DNA of 64,000 nt from Agromyces luteolus (lineage in GTDB: Bacteria; Actinomycetota; Actinomycetes; Actinomycetales; Microbacteriaceae). The stretch spans positions 1 through 64,000 of the forward strand of contig NZ_WODA01000006.1 of the NCBI RefSeq assembly GCF_009729855.1. Direction: 5' to 3'. Under the pieces are notes generated by a model. That model searched no databases. It was not told where the DNA came from and was given only the letters and a program-made list of their open reading frames with translations. Below are positions 4,560 through 21,022 of the stretch, one piece after another (positions within the stretch are counted from its first letter, which is position 1; each line of letters opens with the position of its first letter). A program made the translations under genes and the position numbers.

Positions 4560-6095
<1,536 letters not shown>

Positions 6096-6108
6096 GGCGC
6101 GCGCTCCC

Positions 6109-6152
6109 ACGACGCGACCCCTGCATCCGGATCGGTGCGGGGGTCGCGTCGT
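6109..6152. terminator. Bidirectional terminator between argG and the VOC gene
   Basis: Perfect 13-bp arms ACGACGCGACCCC (6109-6121) and GGGGTCGCGTCGT (6140-6152) enclose an 18-nt loop. The hairpin sits between two convergent genes, so it can serve both. Confidence 0.8.
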
Positions 6153-6168
6153 CTACGGGCAGATCGGC

Positions 6169-6570
6169 TCAGCCCGCGATCGCCGCCTCGGGGACATCCA
6201 CCCACTGGACCAGCTGGATGACGATGCCGTTCGGGTCGAGCACCTGGAAGTAGCGCTCGCCCCACGGCTCGGTCTCGATCGGCGTGGCGATGGGGATGAG
6301 GTGGCGCAGACGGGCCCATTCGGCGTCGATGTCGTCGACCACGAACACGACGAGCAGGCCCGGCCCCGCCGGCTCGCGATGCGTGGCGGGCTTGAAGCTC
6401 GGCAGCCCCGCCCGCAGGAAGATGACGTTCACCCCCGAGTCGGGCCTCGTGAGCGAGGCGAAGCCGTCGGCCGACATGGCGACCTCGAATCCGAAGTGCT
6501 CCTGGAGGAAGCCGCTCGATGCGTCGACGTCGGGGACGTTGAGCGAGAGCGCGGTCGCGGTGATGTGCAT
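6169..6570 (-). CDS. VOC superfamily (glyoxalase/bleomycin-resistance-like) protein
   Basis: A 133-residue vicinal-oxygen-chelate protein with two beta-alpha-beta-beta-beta modules. The first runs ATALSLNVPDVDASSGFLQEHFGFEV and the second ends WGERYFQVLDPNGIVIQLVQW, which has the usual C-terminal metal-ligand Glu/Gln region. Substrate cannot be told from sequence; relatives include glyoxalase I-like, antibiotic-binding and dioxygenase proteins. It is divergent from a TetR gene with a palindrome between them, which suggests an inducible detoxification pair. AAGGGAG precedes the ATG. Confidence 0.85.
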   Translation of the reverse strand: MHITATALSLNVPDVDASSGFLQEHFGFEVAMSADGFASLTRPDSGVNVIFLRAGLPSFKPATHREPAGPGLLVVFVVDDIDAEWARLRHLIPIATPIETEPWGERYFQVLDPNGIVIQLVQWVDVPEAAIAG

Positions 6571-6582
6571 GATTCTCCCTTC

Positions 6583-6611
6583 ACGTACAACGTACGTTAA
6601 TTCGGTACAAT
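6583..6611. promoter_or_regulatory. TetR promoter with overlapping palindromic operator
   Basis: ACGTAC-AAC-GTACGT at 6583-6597 is a perfect inverted repeat with 6-bp arms. It lies between the divergent VOC and TetR genes, where the -35 of the TetR promoter should be. TACAAT at 6606-6611 is a -10 element exactly 6 nt before the TetR start codon, implying leaderless mRNA and autorepression. Operator function is inferred. Confidence 0.6.
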
Positions 6612-6617
6612 GCGCAC

Positions 6618-7367
6618 ATGTCCCGCGATATTCCCGAGCTCATCCGCCTCCTCTGGCGCCATGAGATTCCGGTGGCTCCCGCCCGGGGCCGCCCGGCCCG
6701 GATCTCCGTCGACGACCTCGTCGCCGCGGGCATCGCGATCGCCGACGCCGACGGCCTCGCCGCCGTGACGATGCGGGCGGTCGCGGCACGTCTCGGGACC
6801 GGGCCCATGTCGCTCTACGCCCACGTGCCCGACAAGACGGCCCTGCTCGCGCTGATGTCCGATCGAGTGCTGGCCGCGATGCGGCATGCCGACTACGACC
6901 GGATCGACGACTGGCGCGAGCGGCTCGAGCGGCTGGCGGACGACAATCGCGCCGTCCTCCTCGAGCACGCCTGGCTGGCGGCGGGCGGGCCCGACCCCAT
7001 GCCCGTCGGACCGGGTGCGATCACCAAGTACGAGCGCGAGCTCCGCGCGCTCGATCGACTCGGCCTTCCTCCGGTCGACACGGACGCCTGCCTGACCCTG
7101 ATCGTCGACTTCGCGCGGTCCTCCGCCGTGTCGGCCGTCGCGGCGAGCGCGCCCGACGCGGACTGGTGGCAGGAGGCGGGCCCGGCGCTCGCGGAGCACG
7201 TCGTCCCCGAGCGTTTCCCATTGGCCACGTCGATCGGCGCCGCCGCCGGCGAGGAGCACGGCTCGGCGCGCGACGACGAGCACGCGTGGCGCTTCGGGCT
7301 CGCTCGGATCCTCGACGGGATCGCGTCGCTCGCCGAGGGCCCACCGATCGCTCCCGACATGGACTGA
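6618..7367 (+). CDS. TetR/AcrR family transcriptional regulator
   Basis: A 249-residue repressor-type protein. The helix-turn-helix covers about residues 30-75 (ISVDDLVAAGIAIADADGLAAVTMRAVAARLGTGPMSLYAHVPDKTALL), the expected TetR_N pattern, preceded by a 25-residue basic extension. The C-terminal ligand domain (TetR_C type with WRERLERLADDNRAVLLEHAWL) is unspecific. It faces the VOC gene across 47 bp holding a perfect palindrome, so it probably represses both itself and the VOC gene. TACAAT lies 6 nt before the ATG. Confidence 0.9.
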   Translation: MSRDIPELIRLLWRHEIPVAPARGRPARISVDDLVAAGIAIADADGLAAVTMRAVAARLGTGPMSLYAHVPDKTALLALMSDRVLAAMRHADYDRIDDWRERLERLADDNRAVLLEHAWLAAGGPDPMPVGPGAITKYERELRALDRLGLPPVDTDACLTLIVDFARSSAVSAVAASAPDADWWQEAGPALAEHVVPERFPLATSIGAAAGEEHGSARDDEHAWRFGLARILDGIASLAEGPPIAPDMD

Positions 7368-7382
7368 CGCGGGACCCCCTCG

Positions 7383-7433
7383 CACCAATACGATCACCAT
7401 CAGGACTCGTGGATGGGGGCGATCGTATGGGTG
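7383..7433 (+). terminator. Long hairpin after the TetR gene
   Basis: CACCaATACGATC (7383-7395) pairs with GATCGTATgGGTG (7421-7433), with one mismatch, and a shorter CCATC/GATGG stem lies inside. It follows the TetR stop by 15 bp and ends just before the cardiolipin synthase ribosome binding site. It could be a terminator or a leader structure for the next gene. Confidence 0.5.
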
Positions 7434-7449
7434 CTGTCGAGGTGACTCC

Positions 7450-8925
7450 GTGAGCGGGGGCGAGTGGGCGGCGGTCGTCGGGGGTCTCGTGATCCTCGTC
7501 GACCTGGCGATCCGCATCACGGCGCTCATCATCATCCCCCGCGAACGGAAGCCGACCGCCGCGATGGCGTGGCTGCTCGCCATCTTCCTCATCCCGTTCG
7601 TCGGCATCCTGCTGTACCTGCTGATCGGCAACATCCGGCTGCCGAAGCAGCGGATGGCACGCCAGGACGAGGCCGACCGGATGATCGCCGAGCGCGCTGC
7701 CGAGGTCGACCTCGTGGCCGACCACGCGTCGTGGCCCGCGTGGTTCGACCGGGCCGTCGAGCAGAACACCCGGCTCACGGGCCTGCCGGCGACCTCGGGC
7801 AACCGCGCGACCCTGATCGACGACTACCAGGGCTCGATCGACGCGATGGCGGCGGACATCGCGACCGCGACGCGGTTCGTGCACGTCGAGTTCTTCATCG
7901 TCGCGCTCGACGACACCACCCGGGGCTTCTTCGCGGCGATGGAGGACGCCGTCCGCCGCGGCGTTCACGTGCGGCTGCTGATGGACCACATCGCCTCGTC
8001 GAAGGTCCCGCTGCACAAGGCGACGATCGAGGAGCTCGACCGGATCGGCGTCGAGTGGCACTACCTCCTGCCCGTCCGCCCGTTCAAGGGCGAGTGGCAG
8101 CGGCCCGACCTCCGCAACCACCGCAAGATCGTCGTCGTCGACGGCGTCGTCGGGCACATGGGCTCGCAGAACCTCATCGACCGCAGCTACGACTCGCCGA
8201 AGAACCTGAAGCGGGGCCTGAAGTGGCAGGAGCTCGTGGCCCGGGTCACGGGTCCGGCCGTCGCGGAGCTCAACGCGGTCTTCCGGTCCGACTGGTACGC
8301 CGAGACCGGCGAGGTGCTGGGCGAGGACGCCAACGTGCGCGCGATCGACCTGCCGGTCGACACCTCGCCCGACGCGCTCGACTGCCAGGTGGTGCCGAGC
8401 GGCCCGGCCTTCGAGAGCGAGAACAACCTGCGGCAGTTCCTCACCCTGGTGAACTCGGCGCAGGAGCGGGTCATCATCACGAGCCCGTACTTCGTGCCCG
8501 ACGAGGCCATGGTCTACGCGATCACGTCCGCGAAGCTGCGGGGGCTCGACGTGCAGCTGTTCGTCTCGGAGATCGGCGACCAGGGCGGGGTCTGGCACGC
8601 CCAGCGCTCCTACTACCGCGCGCTCCTCACGGCCGGCGTGCGGATCTGGCTGTACCCGGGTCCGTTCATCCTGCACGCGAAGCACCTCTCGATCGACGAC
8701 GACGTCGCCGTGATCGGTTCGAGCAACATGGACATCCGCTCGTTCGCGCTGAACTTCGAGGTCACGCTGCTGGTGCGGGGCGCCTCCTTCGTCTCCGACA
8801 TGCGCGCCGTCGAGGCCCGGTACCGAGAGCTCGGGCGCGAGCTCACACTCGAGGAGTGGAACCGCGAGCCCGCATCGGCGACGTTCCTCGACGGCATCGC
8901 ACGGCTCACCTCCGCGCTCCAGTAG
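7450..8925 (+). CDS. cls: Cardiolipin synthase (phospholipase D superfamily)
   Basis: Membrane enzyme that makes cardiolipin by phosphatidyl transfer. The 491-aa protein has two N-terminal transmembrane helices (about residues 5-30 and 38-60, the PLDc_N domain) and two PLD active-site motifs: NHRKIVVVDGVVGHMGSQN in the first half and HAKHLSIDDDVAVIGSSN in the second, each with the HxKxxxxD core and a following GSxN. I start at the GTG at 7450, preceded by GAGGTG. Length and architecture match bacterial ClsA-type enzymes. It ends 27 bp from a convergent gene. Another phosphatidyltransferase specificity cannot be excluded. Confidence 0.92.
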   Translation: MSGGEWAAVVGGLVILVDLAIRITALIIIPRERKPTAAMAWLLAIFLIPFVGILLYLLIGNIRLPKQRMARQDEADRMIAERAAEVDLVADHASWPAWFDRAVEQNTRLTGLPATSGNRATLIDDYQGSIDAMAADIATATRFVHVEFFIVALDDTTRGFFAAMEDAVRRGVHVRLLMDHIASSKVPLHKATIEELDRIGVEWHYLLPVRPFKGEWQRPDLRNHRKIVVVDGVVGHMGSQNLIDRSYDSPKNLKRGLKWQELVARVTGPAVAELNAVFRSDWYAETGEVLGEDANVRAIDLPVDTSPDALDCQVVPSGPAFESENNLRQFLTLVNSAQERVIITSPYFVPDEAMVYAITSAKLRGLDVQLFVSEIGDQGGVWHAQRSYYRALLTAGVRIWLYPGPFILHAKHLSIDDDVAVIGSSNMDIRSFALNFEVTLLVRGASFVSDMRAVEARYRELGRELTLEEWNREPASATFLDGIARLTSALQ

Positions 8926-9336: not shown

Positions 9337-10356
9337 CTACATCCAGTTGCGGCGCTTGAAGACCACGTAGAGCACCGCGGCGAACACGGCCATGCCGACC
9401 AGGGAGAGGGGGTAGCCGAGCGGGGTCTCGAGTTCGGGCATGTACCGGAAGTTCATCCCGTAGATCGAGGCGATGAGCGTCGGCGCGAAGATGATCGCCG
9501 CCCAGCTGGAGATCTTCTTCACCTCCTCGCTCTGCCGGAGGCTCGTCTCGGTGAGCCGCTGCATCTCCTCGTTCTGGCGTTGCGTGACGAGCGTCGAGTG
9601 CACAGCGAGCGCGTTCTGCAGGAGCTGGCGGAACGACTCGCCGCGGTCGACGATCCTGAGCACGTGGTCGTCGGCGTCGCGCAGGTACCGCTGCAGTTCG
9701 AGGTCGACACCGTACTTCTCGAATCCGCGCTCGAGCGCCTCGAGGATGCCGACGATGGGCTTCGTCGCCCGCTGGAAGTCCATGACCTCGGCGGCGAGGT
9801 CGTAGATCCGTCGGGTGACCGCGGGGTCGCCGTCGAAGAGCTGCTGCTCGATCTCGTCGATGTCGTTCTCGAGGCCCGACACGACGGGGCCGTACTCGTC
9901 GACGACCTCGTCGATCACGGCGTACAGCACGGCCTCCGGACCGCGGGCGAGCAGTTCGGGCGCGCCCTCCAGGCGGCGGCGAACGCGCGCGAGGTCGGGT
10001 GACTCGGCGTGGCGGATGGTGATGGCGAAGCCCGGCCCGACGAAGACGTGCAGTTCGCCGAACTCCACCTGCTCGACGTCGTCGAGGTAGCGGGCCGGCT
10101 TCAGCACGGCGAAGAGCGTCTGGCCGTAGCGCTCGAGCTTCGGGCGCTGGTGCCCCTTCCGGGCGTCCTCGACCGCGAGGTGGTGCAGCCCGAACTCGGC
10201 GGCCACGGCGTCGAGCTCCGCGTCGGTCGGTCGGTACAGGCCGATCCACGCGAACCCGCCGCCGTGACGCTCCCGGGTCTCGAAGGTCTCCTCGAGCGAT
10301 GCCGGCGTCGCGACACGGCGCCCGTCGCGGTACACGGCGTTGTCGATGATCGGCAC
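9337..10356 (-). CDS. corA: CorA-type magnesium/cobalt channel
   Basis: A 339-residue divalent-cation channel of the plasma membrane. The long cytoplasmic N-terminal funnel (alpha-beta then long helices with VSGLENDIDEIEQQLF and QRQNEEMQRLTETSLRQSEE) is followed by two C-terminal transmembrane segments; the first ends in the diagnostic YGMNF selectivity motif (IASIYGMNFRYMPELETPLGY). A basic tail FKRRNWM closes the protein as in known CorA proteins. The start is a GTG at 10356; a GACACT sits 6 nt upstream, a weak match to the leaderless -10 pattern. A TetR gene lies just upstream on the same strand. Confidence 0.94.
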   Translation of the reverse strand: MPIIDNAVYRDGRRVATPASLEETFETRERHGGGFAWIGLYRPTDAELDAVAAEFGLHHLAVEDARKGHQRPKLERYGQTLFAVLKPARYLDDVEQVEFGELHVFVGPGFAITIRHAESPDLARVRRRLEGAPELLARGPEAVLYAVIDEVVDEYGPVVSGLENDIDEIEQQLFDGDPAVTRRIYDLAAEVMDFQRATKPIVGILEALERGFEKYGVDLELQRYLRDADDHVLRIVDRGESFRQLLQNALAVHSTLVTQRQNEEMQRLTETSLRQSEEVKKISSWAAIIFAPTLIASIYGMNFRYMPELETPLGYPLSLVGMAVFAAVLYVVFKRRNWM

Positions 10357-17221: not shown

Positions 17222-17320
17222 GTGCCCGAGCGACGCTACCCCCGAACGGGGGCTCGGTCAACCCCGAGCCATCCGATCGCGTCGACACCGCGCCGACCGG
17301 ACGCGGGTATGGTGGGGCCG

Positions 17321-17980
17321 ATGCCCGCGACCAGCAGCCCCGCCGTCGAGGACTACCTCAAGACGATCTACGGCCACACCGAGTGGCAGCCCGAGGCGAT
17401 CACGCCGTCCGGGCTCGCCGCCGCGCTCGGCGTCGCCCCCTCGTCGGTCACCGAGATGGTGAAGAAGATGGCCTCGCAGGGGCTCGTGCAGCACGTGCCC
17501 TACGGCGCGATCCGGTTGACGGATGCCGGGCGCGCCCACGCGCTCGCGGTCGTGCGCCGCCACCGCCTCATCGAGACCTGGCTCGTCCGCGAGATGGGCT
17601 ACGCGTGGGACGAGGTGCACGACGAGGCCGAGGTGCTCGAGCACGCGCTCTCCGACCGGCTGCTCGAGGCGATCGACGTCCGGCTCGGCCGTCCCGAGCG
17701 CGATCCGCACGGCGACGCGATCCCCCGCGCCGACGGCACGCTCGTGAGCGAGCCCGCCGTGCGCCTCGACGAGGCCCCGACGGGGCACGTGGGCCGCGTC
17801 ATCCGGATCAGCGATCGCGACCCCGCGGTGCTGCGCGAACTCGAGGCGGCCGGGGTCGGTCCGGGCCGCGAACTGCGCGTGACGGATGCCGCGTCGCCCG
17901 CCGCCGTCGGCGTCGCGCTCGACGGGGCCGCCCACGCGATCCCGCGCGCCGCCGCGGCCGGGATCTGGATCACGGCCTGA
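17321..17980 (+). CDS. mntR: DtxR/MntR family metal-dependent regulator
   Basis: A 219-residue metalloregulator. The winged helix covers about residues 8-70 (VEDYLKTIYGHTEWQPEAITPSGLAAALGVAPSSVTEMVKKMASQGLV). Known ligand positions read Asp11, His81, Glu104, Glu107 and His108 (DEAEVLEHALS). Asp and Glu occupy the sites that are Met10 and Cys102 in iron-type DtxR, as in MntR, so manganese sensing is favoured. A C-terminal SH3-like domain (GHVGRVIRISDRDPAVLRELEAAGVGPG) is kept, as in DtxR. The ATG at 17321 has TATGGT 7 nt upstream. The Mn importer lies 2.8 kb away with matching palindromes. Confidence 0.88.
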   Translation: MPATSSPAVEDYLKTIYGHTEWQPEAITPSGLAAALGVAPSSVTEMVKKMASQGLVQHVPYGAIRLTDAGRAHALAVVRRHRLIETWLVREMGYAWDEVHDEAEVLEHALSDRLLEAIDVRLGRPERDPHGDAIPRADGTLVSEPAVRLDEAPTGHVGRVIRISDRDPAVLRELEAAGVGPGRELRVTDAASPAAVGVALDGAAHAIPRAAAAGIWITA

Positions 17981-18032: not shown

Positions 18033-19676
18033 ATGGGCGGTGCCGTCGAGAAGATCACCCCGGAACTCACTGATGCGCAGTGGTCGCGACTCAGACGCTA
18101 CGGCGTGCCGCATGACGTCGCCGAGGGCGATGTCCTCTTCAAGGCGGGCGACCGCTCGTACGACCTGATCCTCGTCGAGACCGGCGAGGTCGAGGTCGTG
18201 CGCGAGGCCCTGTGGTGGACCGAGGAGACGCAGTTGGCCCGATTGGGCCCGCGCACGTTCGTGGGCGAGCTCGGGCTGCTGAACGGCCAGCGCGCCTTCC
18301 TCACTGCGCGCGTGACCGTGCCGGGGCGAGTGCTCCGGATCGACCACGACGCACTGCAGAAGATGATGGCCGACGACGACGAGCTCTGCGACCTCATGCT
18401 GCGCACGCTCTGGGCGCGCCGCGAGATGCTCCGGCACGGCCCCGCCGCCTGGACCCTGAAGCTCGTCGGCTCGCAGAGCCCCGAGTCGCAGGCGCTGCGA
18501 CGCTACGCCGACCGCCTCGAGCTCGTGCACACCTGGATCGACGTCGACGACCCGGACCTGTCGCACGACATCTGGTCGCACGGCTACACGCGCGACGACC
18601 TGCCGGTCGCCATCGTGCAGGGCGAGATCATCCGCAACGCGACGCCCGGGCAGATCGCCGAGATGCTCGGGCTCGCGTACACGGCCGAGGACGACACCGA
18701 GTTCGACCTCGCCGTCGTCGGCGCGGGGCCGGCGGGCCTCGCCGCCGCGATCTACGGCGCGTCGGAAGGGCTGCAGACCGTGCTGCTCGACGCGGTCGCG
18801 CCCGGCGGGCAGTCGGCGACGACGTCGCGGATCGAGAACTACCTCGGCTTCCCGTTCGGCGTGAGCGGCGACGCCCTCACCTCGCAGGCCTCGCTGCAGG
18901 CGTTCAAGTTCGGCGTCCGCATCGCCTCGCCGTGCCCGGTCGTGAAGCTCGACCCCGAGGGCGGCGTCCACCGCCTGCTGCTCGCCGACGGGGCGATCGT
19001 GCGCGCCCGCGCGGTCATCGTCACGACCGGCGTCGCCTATCGCGGGCTGCCGATCGCGCGCTGGGACGAGTTCGAGGGCGCCGGCATCCACCACGCCGCG
19101 ACCGCGCTCGAGGTGCGCCAGGCGTCCGGATCGGACGTGGTCGTCATCGGCGGCGCGAACTCGGCCGGGCAGGCCGCGCTCGCGCTGGCCCAGGGCGGAT
19201 GCCGCGTGCGGCTCGTCGTGCGCTCCGGCGAGCTCGCGGACCGGATGTCGAGCTACCTCGTCGACCGGATCCGCGAGGACCCGCGGATCGACGTGCACAC
19301 CGGCACCCAGGTCTCCGCGCTGCACGGCGACGACACGCTCGCACGCGTGACGCTGACCGGAGCCGTCGACGAGACCGTCGACTGCCGGGCGCTGTTCTGC
19401 TTCATCGGCGCGGTGCCGGCGACCGACTGGCTCGCCGACCTCGAACGCGACGACGACGGGTTCGTCCACACGGGCGCCGACGTGCTCGCCCTGGGCGACG
19501 CGTGGCGCTCGGCGGGGCGGATGCCGCTGCCCTTCGAGACCTCGGTGCCGCGCGTGTTCGCCGCCGGCGACGTGCGGCGCGGGTCGATGAAACGCGTGGC
19601 CGCCGCGGTCGGCGAGGGGTCGAGCGCGGTGGCATCGGTCCATCGGGCGCTCGCGACGACGGAGGTGTACGCATGA
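18033..19676 (+). CDS. Cyclic-nucleotide-binding domain fused to a thioredoxin-reductase-like flavoprotein without redox cysteines
   Basis: A 547-aa three-part protein. Residues about 10-130 form a CRP-type cNMP-binding fold (GDVLFKAGDRSYDLILVETGEVEVV, FVGELGLLNGQ). Residues about 140-215 look like a glutaredoxin/thioredoxin fold (LKLVGSQSPESQALRRYADR, TWIDVDDPD, DLPVAIVQGEIIRNAT) with no CxxC. From about 222 the TrxR part has the FAD loop GAGPAGLAAA, NADPH loop VVIGGANSAGQAAL and VFAAGDVRRGSMKRVAAAVGEGSSAV. The CxxC of true TrxR is replaced by HHAAT (353-357). It should bind FAD and NADPH but cannot reduce thioredoxin by the usual route. Overlaps a UBP-finger gene. Confidence 0.9.
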   Translation: MGGAVEKITPELTDAQWSRLRRYGVPHDVAEGDVLFKAGDRSYDLILVETGEVEVVREALWWTEETQLARLGPRTFVGELGLLNGQRAFLTARVTVPGRVLRIDHDALQKMMADDDELCDLMLRTLWARREMLRHGPAAWTLKLVGSQSPESQALRRYADRLELVHTWIDVDDPDLSHDIWSHGYTRDDLPVAIVQGEIIRNATPGQIAEMLGLAYTAEDDTEFDLAVVGAGPAGLAAAIYGASEGLQTVLLDAVAPGGQSATTSRIENYLGFPFGVSGDALTSQASLQAFKFGVRIASPCPVVKLDPEGGVHRLLLADGAIVRARAVIVTTGVAYRGLPIARWDEFEGAGIHHAATALEVRQASGSDVVVIGGANSAGQAALALAQGGCRVRLVVRSGELADRMSSYLVDRIREDPRIDVHTGTQVSALHGDDTLARVTLTGAVDETVDCRALFCFIGAVPATDWLADLERDDDGFVHTGADVLALGDAWRSAGRMPLPFETSVPRVFAAGDVRRGSMKRVAAAVGEGSSAVASVHRALATTEVYA

Positions 19677-20065
19677 GCGCGGCAGCAGCGTCGTCGTCGG
19701 CGCCCGGGTCGGAGCCGACGCCTGGCGCCGAGCCCGTCCTCGCGCCCCCGCCGTCCGGCACCGGGTGCAGCGAGTGCCTCGACCTCGGCGGCTGGTGGTG
19801 GCACCTGCGCCGCTGCGCCGAGTGCGGGAACATCGGGTGCTGCGACGCGTCGCCCGGCCAGCACGCGCGCCGGCACGCCGAGGCGACGGGCCACACGGTC
19901 GCGGCCTCGTTCGAGCCCGGCGAGGAGTGGTTCTGGGACTACGCCGCGGAGCGCGGAGCGCGGCGCGTGCCGCTCGCGCCGCCGCGGTGGCGCCCCGAGG
20001 ACCAGGCGTGCCCCGGCCCGGCCGGCAGCGTGCCCGAGAACTGGGAGGAGCTGCTGCACCCGTGA
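19673..20065 (+). CDS. UBP-type zinc finger protein
   Basis: A 130-residue protein. After a 35-residue Ala/Ser/Pro linker comes a complete zf-UBP domain: GCSECLDL, WWWHLRRCAECGNIGCCD, GQHARRHAEATGHTVAASFEPGEEWFWDYAAE, with the Cys and His zinc ligands and the aromatic residues of the family. In eukaryotes the domain grips the free C-terminus of ubiquitin; bacteria lack ubiquitin, so another glycine-ended peptide or the flavoprotein partner is likely. Its ATG overlaps the stop of the CRP-TrxR gene, with GGAGG upstream, indicating that both are made together. Confidence 0.88.
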   Translation: MSAAAASSSAPGSEPTPGAEPVLAPPPSGTGCSECLDLGGWWWHLRRCAECGNIGCCDASPGQHARRHAEATGHTVAASFEPGEEWFWDYAAERGARRVPLAPPRWRPEDQACPGPAGSVPENWEELLHP

Positions 20066-20224: not shown

Positions 20225-21022
20225 ATGGCGAAACGCGAAGAGGTCGAGGCCTGGCTCACCGACATGGACGGCGTGCTGGTGCACGAGAACCACGCCCTCC
20301 CCGGCGCGTCCGACCTGCTGCAGCAGTGGGAGGACTCGGGCACGCCCTACCTCGTGCTCACCAACAACTCGATCTTCACGGCCCGCGACCTGTCGGCCAG
20401 GCTCCGCGCCTCCGGCCTGAACGTGCCCGAGGAGCGCATCTGGACCTCGGCGCTCGCGACCGCCGACTTCCTCAAGCAGCAGGTGCCGGGCGGCTCGGCC
20501 TTCGTCATCGGCGAGGCCGGCATCCTGACCGCGCTGCACGAGGCCGGCTTCATCATGACCGAGACCGACCCCGACTTCGTGGTCGTCGGCGAGACCCGCA
20601 ACTACTCGTTCGACGCGATCACGAAGGCGATCCGGCTGATCGGCGCGGGTGCCCGATTCATCGTCACCAACCCGGATGCCACGGGGCCGAGCGCCGACGG
20701 TCCGCTGCCGGCGACGGGCGCCATCGCGGCGCTCATCACGAAGGCCTCGGGCCGGGAGCCGTACGTCGTCGGCAAGCCGAACCCGATGATGTTCCGGTCG
20801 GCGCTGAACAAGATCGGCGCGCACTCCGAGCACACCGCGATGATCGGCGACCGCATGGACACCGACATCGTCGCGGGCATCGAGGCGGGACTGCACACCG
20901 TCCTCGTGCTCACCGGCATCAGCGACCAGCGCGAGATCGAGAAGTACCCCTTCCGCCCCGACGAGATCCTCTCCGGCGTGTCCGAGCTCGTCTCGCGCGA
21001 ACCCGTCGAGTCCGACCTCTGA
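20225..21022 (+). CDS. HAD-superfamily hydrolase, subfamily IIA (NagD-like)
   Basis: A 265-residue phosphatase of the haloacid dehalogenase fold, probably acting on phosphorylated sugars or nucleotides. The catalytic DMDGVL (nucleophile Asp and acid/base Asp) is near residue 14-19, TNNS follows as motif II, KPNPMMF supplies the Lys motif and MIGDRMDTDIVAGIEAGL the terminal acidic motif. The C2-type cap lies between. The ATG at 20225 has TAGGCT 6 nt upstream; an in-frame start two codons earlier would overlap the transcription start and is less likely. Confidence 0.92.
   Translation: MAKREEVEAWLTDMDGVLVHENHALPGASDLLQQWEDSGTPYLVLTNNSIFTARDLSARLRASGLNVPEERIWTSALATADFLKQQVPGGSAFVIGEAGILTALHEAGFIMTETDPDFVVVGETRNYSFDAITKAIRLIGAGARFIVTNPDATGPSADGPLPATGAIAALITKASGREPYVVGKPNPMMFRSALNKIGAHSEHTAMIGDRMDTDIVAGIEAGLHTVLVLTGISDQREIEKYPFRPDEILSGVSELVSREPVESDL

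Follow-up and report, generated by a model that had tools for sequence, protein, structure and literature searches.

A two-gene locus at positions 18,033 to 20,065 of a 64,000-nucleotide stretch of Agromyces luteolus DNA (the window; contig NZ_WODA01000006.1, positions 1 to 64,000 of the forward strand) encodes a flavoprotein with a thioredoxin reductase (TrxR)-like core, here called gene A, and a UBP zinc-finger protein, here called gene B. Among described proteins, the NADH:peroxiredoxin reductase AhpF of E. coli (4o5q/4xvg, 1hyu) likewise combines a thioredoxin-fold N-terminal part with a following TrxR-like core, and AhpF chains were the best Foldseek matches of the whole gene A model, covering two domains and 460-469 columns. 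AhpF works via CxxC pairs. Unlike AhpF, the gene A product has no CxxC and carries an additional sensor domain, which is a cyclic-nucleotide-binding (CNB) domain in gene A and a receiver (REC) in its paralogues. The low-molecular-weight thioredoxin reductases (TIGR01292) have the FAD/NAD(P)H fold in common with gene A, but their CxxC is absent from it. The TrxR fold is used without a CxxC by the TrxR-like ferredoxin/flavodoxin NADP reductases (YumC type), and 8c16_B of this class was among the fold matches of gene A. In sequence, however, gene A is far nearer to TrxR (best E 5e-33) than to YumC-type reductases (2e-13), which also lack its sensor and glutaredoxin-like (Grx-like) domains.

Response regulators with a TrxB-type output are already a named class, called after an oxidoreductase in PMC9953108. 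In gene A a CNB domain stands where these proteins have their receiver, and the REC-Grx-TrxR proteins described below belong to the same family as gene A. Among the matches listed in searches of the open-licence literature, we found no study of the CNB version, the absent CxxC, the partnership with the finger or a chaperone gene row, nor any study of a bacterial UBP finger. The parts of the two genes are as follows.

18033..19676, + strand: gene A, CNB-Grx-like-TrxR-like flavoprotein, 547 aa (ATG 18033, stop TGA 19674-19676)
18117..18374, + strand: CNB domain (cNMP_binding fold), gene A residues 29-114 (PF00027)
18447..18695, + strand: predicted glutaredoxin/NrdH-fold domain without CxxC, residues 139-221 (AlphaFold model, VIA, Foldseek)
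18702..19619, + strand: TrxR-like FAD/NAD(P)H core, residues 224-529 (PF07992, VIA)
19089..19106, + strand: site of the missing CxxC, residues 353-358, HHAATA
19122..19124, + strand: residue 364, Ala in gene A (Cys in 81/94 CNB-type relatives)
19673..19676, + strand: ATGA start/stop overlap of genes A and B
19673..20065, + strand: gene B, bacterial zf-UBP finger protein, 130 aa (ATG 19673, stop TGA 20063-20065)
19766..19951, + strand: zf-UBP domain, gene B residues 32-93 (PF02148; nearest solved chain 2ida_A)

The flavoprotein core and its missing dithiol

Residues 224-529 of gene A matched Pyr_redox_2 at 113.7 bits (Pfam cut-off 26.1), and in a VIA comparison the predicted model of the core aligned with TrxR structure 5mh4 over 296 residues (Z 28.9, rmsd 2.9). 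The model of the whole protein, built from 14 sequences, had a pLDDT of 81 and a pTM of 0.76, with residues 255-277 poorly modelled. Gene A scored below the equivalog models of both TrxB (TIGR01292, 186.2 bits against a cut-off of 343.45) and AhpF (TIGR03140, 127.6 against 502.9). A bona fide TrxB is encoded elsewhere in the genome (389 bits against a cut-off of 343), so that ordinary thioredoxin reduction is served without gene A.

Alignment by hand placed the CATC of this TrxB (locus L249) over residues A355-A-T-A358 of gene A, within the HHAAT of residues 353-357, which confirms an earlier reading of this DNA from sequence only that had seen HHAAT in place of the CxxC. To define the family we searched 296 genomes of the phylum with gene A, collected the 94 matches with E <= 1e-60 and kept the 92 cores whose match covered 280 residues or more; L094 and L153, with shorter matches, were dropped, and the duplicate stretches L053 and L058 were left out too. 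A cysteine at either CxxC position was found in 0 of the 92 cores, and a CxxC elsewhere in one (L063). A second set of 94 CNB-type proteins was drawn from the phylum sample and from 80 named loci; one named locus, L234, whose TrxR match is split across two frames, is not among the 94. Two of these proteins (L192, L239) have a CxxC anywhere, and none has one at the site. Instead, a conserved [YH][YH]xAT motif occupies it, most often as YYAAT (33 of 94), YYGAT (17) or HYAAT (14), with A356 in 94/94, T357 in 90/94 and Y354 in 88/94, against 61% for the median column. We rejected the idea that gene A alone had a decayed or recently lost CxxC, since the absence is family-wide and a conserved motif stands in its place. 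Judged from these alignments, the missing cysteines are a family trait.

We then considered whether another cysteine might take over. The five cysteines of gene A itself (residues 119, 301, 390, 451 and 456) are each present in at most 21 of the 94 relatives. The family candidate is C364, a cysteine in 81 relatives. In gene A this position is Ala, and 12 others have Ala, Val, Thr or Tyr there, among them the proteins of the Microbacterium loci L161, L162 and L165 and of the same-genus locus L082, all adjoined by a UBP finger gene. Reduction of thioredoxin through another cysteine had been set beforehand as a second refuting test; gene A offers no conserved cysteine for it. With C364 absent, its own cysteines poorly conserved and the CxxC gone, an internal thiol relay is highly improbable, at least in gene A's branch.

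The FAD and dinucleotide motifs are strongly conserved among the CNB-type relatives. The reported retention of both cofactor sites therefore stands, but the evidence on the dinucleotide goes no further than NADPH or NADH, and we write NAD(P)H for the putative cofactor.

The middle of the protein, residues ~139-221, had no Pfam match, and a search with residues 139-221 against PDB sequences gave nothing of note (best E 0.11). The REC paralogue at L062, however, matched Pfam Glutaredoxin slightly above the cut-off (23.9 bits against 22.9), and an AlphaFold model of the domain (pLDDT 88, built from 41 sequences) resembled glutaredoxins and NrdH in VIA with Z-scores of 11.7 to 9.8, the best being 7c12_A (71 residues, rmsd 1.3). 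The top Foldseek row by E-value was ArsD, another thioredoxin-like fold. The middle domain is therefore predicted to adopt a glutaredoxin fold. It contains no CxxC, its active site included. In both respects it agrees with the Grx-like part noted earlier; it is not inserted in the core, however, but lies outside it, between the CNB and TrxR parts.

The UBP finger partner

Coordinates and PF02148 bear out the overlap of gene A by a UBP finger gene through ATGA. Residues 32-93 of gene B matched zf-UBP at 47.4 bits (cut-off 22.7), the sole such match in the genome. Co-conservation of the pair, set beforehand as a test that could refute the idea of a system, was found. In the phylum sample of 296 genomes, 48 have both flavoenzyme and finger, 14 the flavoenzyme alone, 20 the finger alone and 214 neither (Fisher p 1e-26, uncorrected for kinship); the finger is thus present in 48/62 flavoenzyme genomes against 20/234 others. 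In 150 genomes of the host's taxonomic family, with a stricter flavoenzyme cut-off of 1e-130, the corresponding numbers were 13, 2, 23 and 112 (p 9e-8, likewise uncorrected), or a finger in 13/15 flavoenzyme genomes against 23/135 others.

The two genes are also frequently neighbours. Pairs at most 10 kb apart numbered 22 in the phylum sample, 21 of them on the same strand, against ~0.55 expected for an assumed 4.5-Mb genome, an enrichment of ~40-fold. Among the 80 named CNB-type loci, 27 have a finger within 6 kb, 25 of these within 500 bp, where ~0.25 would be expected at an assumed density (~100-fold). All four arrangements occur among the 27, same-strand fingers lying upstream in 14 cases and downstream in 5, and opposed-strand fingers in 4 and 4, and the linked loci come from six phyla (Actinomycetota, Bacteroidota, Pseudomonadota, Acidobacteriota, Gemmatimonadota and Bdellovibrionota). 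The pairing is co-conserved beyond chance; it is not obligate.

These numbers leave little room for the idea that gene B is an unrelated passenger, near gene A by chance or hitch-hiking. Agromyces tardus lacks the finger at this site, and gene order and strand vary between loci, as a passenger would allow. Both enrichments, the occurrence of all four arrangements and a fusion of the finger to a CNB kinase (see below) nevertheless make this explanation very improbable.

What gene B may bind can be approached through its pocket. According to PMC10424181, ligands of HDAC6 that imitate the ubiquitin C-terminus have their carboxylate contacted by Arg 1155 and Tyr 1184, while Trp 1182 stacks on them; R84A and Y117A are the corresponding USP16 variants. 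A profile search listed one solved member of gene B's bacterial family, 2ida_A (E 2.5e-44), a UBP finger entered as a hypothetical protein. In A2, an alignment of 22 finger sequences, the zinc-ligand Cys and His residues are invariant; gene B's branch lacks the N-terminal C-x-H of most A2 rows and has a C-terminal tail common to few. A recount over 89 rows gave 78 distinct fingers, leaving out the two halves of L078's broken frame and the degenerate second frame of L006. In an ungapped stretch of the alignment, Asp 58 of gene B falls on the pocket Arg of USP16, so that the pocket Arg of the diGly-binding type, to which HDAC6 (R1155), USP5 and USP16 (R84) belong, is absent from gene B. Position 58 is Asp in 73 of the distinct fingers, Glu in 3, Asn in 2 and Arg in none. 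The aromatic wall is kept, with Trp 88 in 69/78 and Tyr or Phe at position 90 in 75/78. Compared with the eukaryotic chains shown, the bacterial fingers have four extra residues; two of them, His 44 and Arg 46, do not vary in A2 and occur in 74/78 and 78/78 distinct fingers, respectively. The pocket thus looks rebuilt, with an aromatic wall that lacks its Arg. With this Arg replaced, the proposal that gene B binds free C-terminal glycines is weakened and cannot be taken for granted.

Two further ideas about the finger were set aside. The extra cysteine C57, next to C56, found no specific support as the missing redox thiol, since it is Cys in 78/78 fingers whether flavoenzyme-linked or not; in this split the stretches of L002-L031 are short and some fingers counted as unlinked are linked further off. 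Pupylation tails are a less likely ligand, as the pair is also present in phyla that are not known to have Pup. A different finger type (CEGC...CCES, with one residue fewer between CC and His) was seen in L020 and L021, with no flavoenzyme nearby within the short stretches examined.

Sensor domains and gene neighbourhoods across the family

The CNB domain in front of the Grx-like part, as originally described, is well supported (residues 29-114, PF00027 at 52.1 bits against a cut-off of 27.5), and residue 79 is acidic (E or D) in 93/94 CNB-type proteins. The Arg of the phosphate-binding cassette, however, is not conserved (R87 in 23/94). An E...R-x-A cassette pattern, which recovers just 3/4 control motifs, matched 8/94 proteins against 7.95 in shuffles. 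Class III cyclases gave 13 matches in the genome, the nearest on the gene A contig at position 165030, and no nucleotide cyclase, a feature of Pycsar and CBASS, lies beside gene A. A defence system of the Pycsar/CBASS type was rejected, as PADLOC matches were confined to the CNB domain and reached 20.3 bits at best. The lack of a conserved cassette Arg in the flavoenzymes casts doubt on cyclic-nucleotide gating; for the suggestion that a second messenger gates the enzyme, the fold is present but a conserved Arg is not, and on this basis we would not call gene A cyclic-nucleotide-gated.

Most members of the family carry a receiver instead. Of the 92 cores, 71 are of the receiver type, 15 of the CNB type and 6 of neither, several of the last (L095, L137, L147, L154) having a gene that is truncated at a contig end or split over frames. 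At 35 of the 71 receiver loci the same stretch contains a CNB-domain histidine kinase, and in 16 of these 35 a UBP finger as well. The CNB, Grx-like, TrxR-like and UBP parts thus recur as a two-component system. Where a CNB domain is present, either in the flavoprotein or in the kinase, 21 of 50 loci have a finger nearby, compared with 1 of 36 among receiver loci that lack a CNB kinase (p 3e-5), and the contrast holds where both flanks reach at least 3 kb (20/38 against 1/24). At three of the 21 (L070, L081, L101) the finger lies ~7 kb off, in larger stretches chosen for that reason. Some of these kinases, e.g. at L069 and L073, have a cassette-like GE...PRxA motif, the above pattern, with its 3/4 controls, matching 4 of 44.

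In L069 the kinase itself ends in a finger: a 554-aa protein (5777-7534, - strand) combines PF00027, PF02518 and a C-terminal PF02148 and adjoins the REC-Grx-TrxR gene, on whose other side a second, free finger is encoded (9975-10355). At L081, L101, L108 and L111 the REC-Grx-TrxR gene is followed by three consecutive CNB-histidine kinase genes. Gene A's own genome has two REC-Grx-TrxR paralogues (L062, L063), and ~0.9 kb downstream of the one at L063 (G000:C24:99596-102243), on the same strand, lies a class III cyclase domain. The 4.6 kb stretch of L032 showed no CNB kinase next to gene A.

A tree of the family placed 51 REC rows within a paraphyletic CNB group, accompanied by a single CNB row and a single row that is neither; it was made by a quick method with one very long outgroup branch, and its REC rows come from one phylum only. 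Our first idea was a shift from a two-component to a one-component form; the nesting does not match it, but with this sampling either form may have come first. Inside the REC clade lies a second CNB-TrxR protein of genome G268, from gene A's genus (L066:5099-7264). It had no match to the Grx-like profile and is possibly an independent domain swap.

At 12 of 96 CNB-type loci the flavoenzyme is the last gene of a tight row of DnaJ, MerR_2, ClpB, thioredoxin 2 and, in 8 of the 12, a UBP finger; in two of the stretches GrpE precedes the row. The loci are L193:1269-5902, L088, L184, L189, L202, L205, L207, L214, L220, L221, L227 and L230, and Pfam runs on members of L193, L205 and L221 bore out the families. 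In the neighbour count, TrxR matches of less than 200 residues were dropped and clusters of antisense frames were disregarded because they only shadow conserved genes. Among the named carriers are Streptomyces, Mycolicibacterium, Paractinoplanes and Diaminobutyricibacter, the last (L230) in the same family as gene A's host. This row links the flavoenzymes to protein quality control in one branch. Thioredoxins adjoin 14 flavoenzymes; all 14 have a CxxC (WCGPC in 13, WCAPC in one), and all 14 flavoenzymes have C364.

Possible modes of action

We regard as roughly evenly poised the reading that gene A belongs to a large uncharacterized family of signal-gated, thiol-free flavin switches or electron donors with the UBP finger as adaptor. 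We infer that the sensor, a CNB domain or in relatives a receiver, would control reduction of FAD by NAD(P)H, and that the reduced flavin would hand its electrons directly to an external acceptor, without an internal dithiol; alternatively, the output may be a partner whose binding shifts with the redox state of the flavin. The Grx-like domain could serve as a docking surface, and the finger as an adaptor that selects or presents a protein partner, the setting being probably protein quality control, as suggested by the DnaJ-MerR-ClpB-thioredoxin row of one branch. In a more specific and clearly more tentative form, the CNB input, on the flavoprotein or on the receiver's kinase, would set the TrxR-derived switch, and a finger with a rebuilt ubiquitin-tail pocket would relay its state to protein clients or chaperones. 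Such a thiol-free signalling module would mean a ubiquitin-independent use of UBP fingers in bacterial protein quality control in at least six phyla.

Several observations weigh against a gated switch or donor with the finger as adaptor. The strongest rival, a pure sensor without a dedicated acceptor, fits about as well: the NAD(P)H pool would set the flavin state and thereby conformation and partner binding, with no catalysis. We hold this to be possible rather than probable. Fusions to sensor-type domains (CNB or REC), the lack of a thiol relay and the strongly conserved dinucleotide and FAD motifs all suit it, but the strong conservation at the CxxC site suits an enzyme as well, and PMC9953108 classes the TrxB-type output under the name of an oxidoreductase. 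C364 could still be a working thiol in the many relatives that have it. The chaperone row belongs to one branch, 12/96 loci, which is not that of gene A, whose branch is flanked by a DtxR/MntR-like regulator and a HAD-like gene. Agromyces tardus (L170:4374-7659) has its flavoenzyme flanked by the same DtxR and HAD genes but no finger there, in genome G225 of gene A's genus the finger is elsewhere in the genome, and 14 of 62 flavoenzyme genomes have none. No finger was found in the examined stretch of 53 of the 80 named loci, 19 of the 80 having less than 3 kb on one side, and the association tests carry no correction for phylogeny.

Two explanations closer to known biochemistry are less attractive. 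Reduction of thioredoxin or another disulfide protein through a different cysteine, for instance C364, or through one supplied by a partner would agree with the TrxR and AhpF proteins being the nearest relatives in sequence and fold, with the 81/94 frequency of C364 and with its presence in every flavoenzyme that has a thioredoxin neighbour. It is possible for the C364 relatives but unsuited to gene A, which has Ala at this position; 12 others likewise lack the Cys, some with a finger adjoining, the cysteines of gene A itself are not conserved, and its genome has a true TrxB. As an account of gene A we consider it unlikely. The model of the sequence-only reading, a cyclic-nucleotide-gated enzyme paired with a finger for free C-terminal glycines, seems more doubtful still. 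The PF00027 match, the 13 cyclase matches and the cassette-like motif in some CNB kinases speak for it, whereas the unconserved cassette Arg in the flavoenzymes, the Asp in place of the pocket Arg and the His/Arg four-residue insertion, which among the chains shown only the bacterial fingers have, speak against it.

On similarity alone, members of the family are likely to be taken for thioredoxin reductases, although none of those examined has the defining dithiol. Should the module prove to be what it looks like, it would be a regulated redox system of wide distribution and a consistent partner for bacterial UBP fingers, and the ligand of a UBP finger in organisms that lack ubiquitin becomes a direct experimental question.

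The genes on either side of the pair in the window are the following.

17312..17980, + strand: MntR/DtxR-like regulator, 52 bases ahead of gene A
20225..21022, + strand: HAD-like gene, labelled from its own sequence

A scan for promoters and terminators found nothing. Same-genus relatives of gene A are at 75% and 69% identity, and Agromyces tardus is among its nearest named relatives (76%); there, too, the MntR/DtxR-like regulator adjoins the gene A homologue. In four other loci, L189 (7632-8120, the only one run against Pfam), L088, L181 and L207, a DUF1931 gene adjoins the flavoenzyme downstream.

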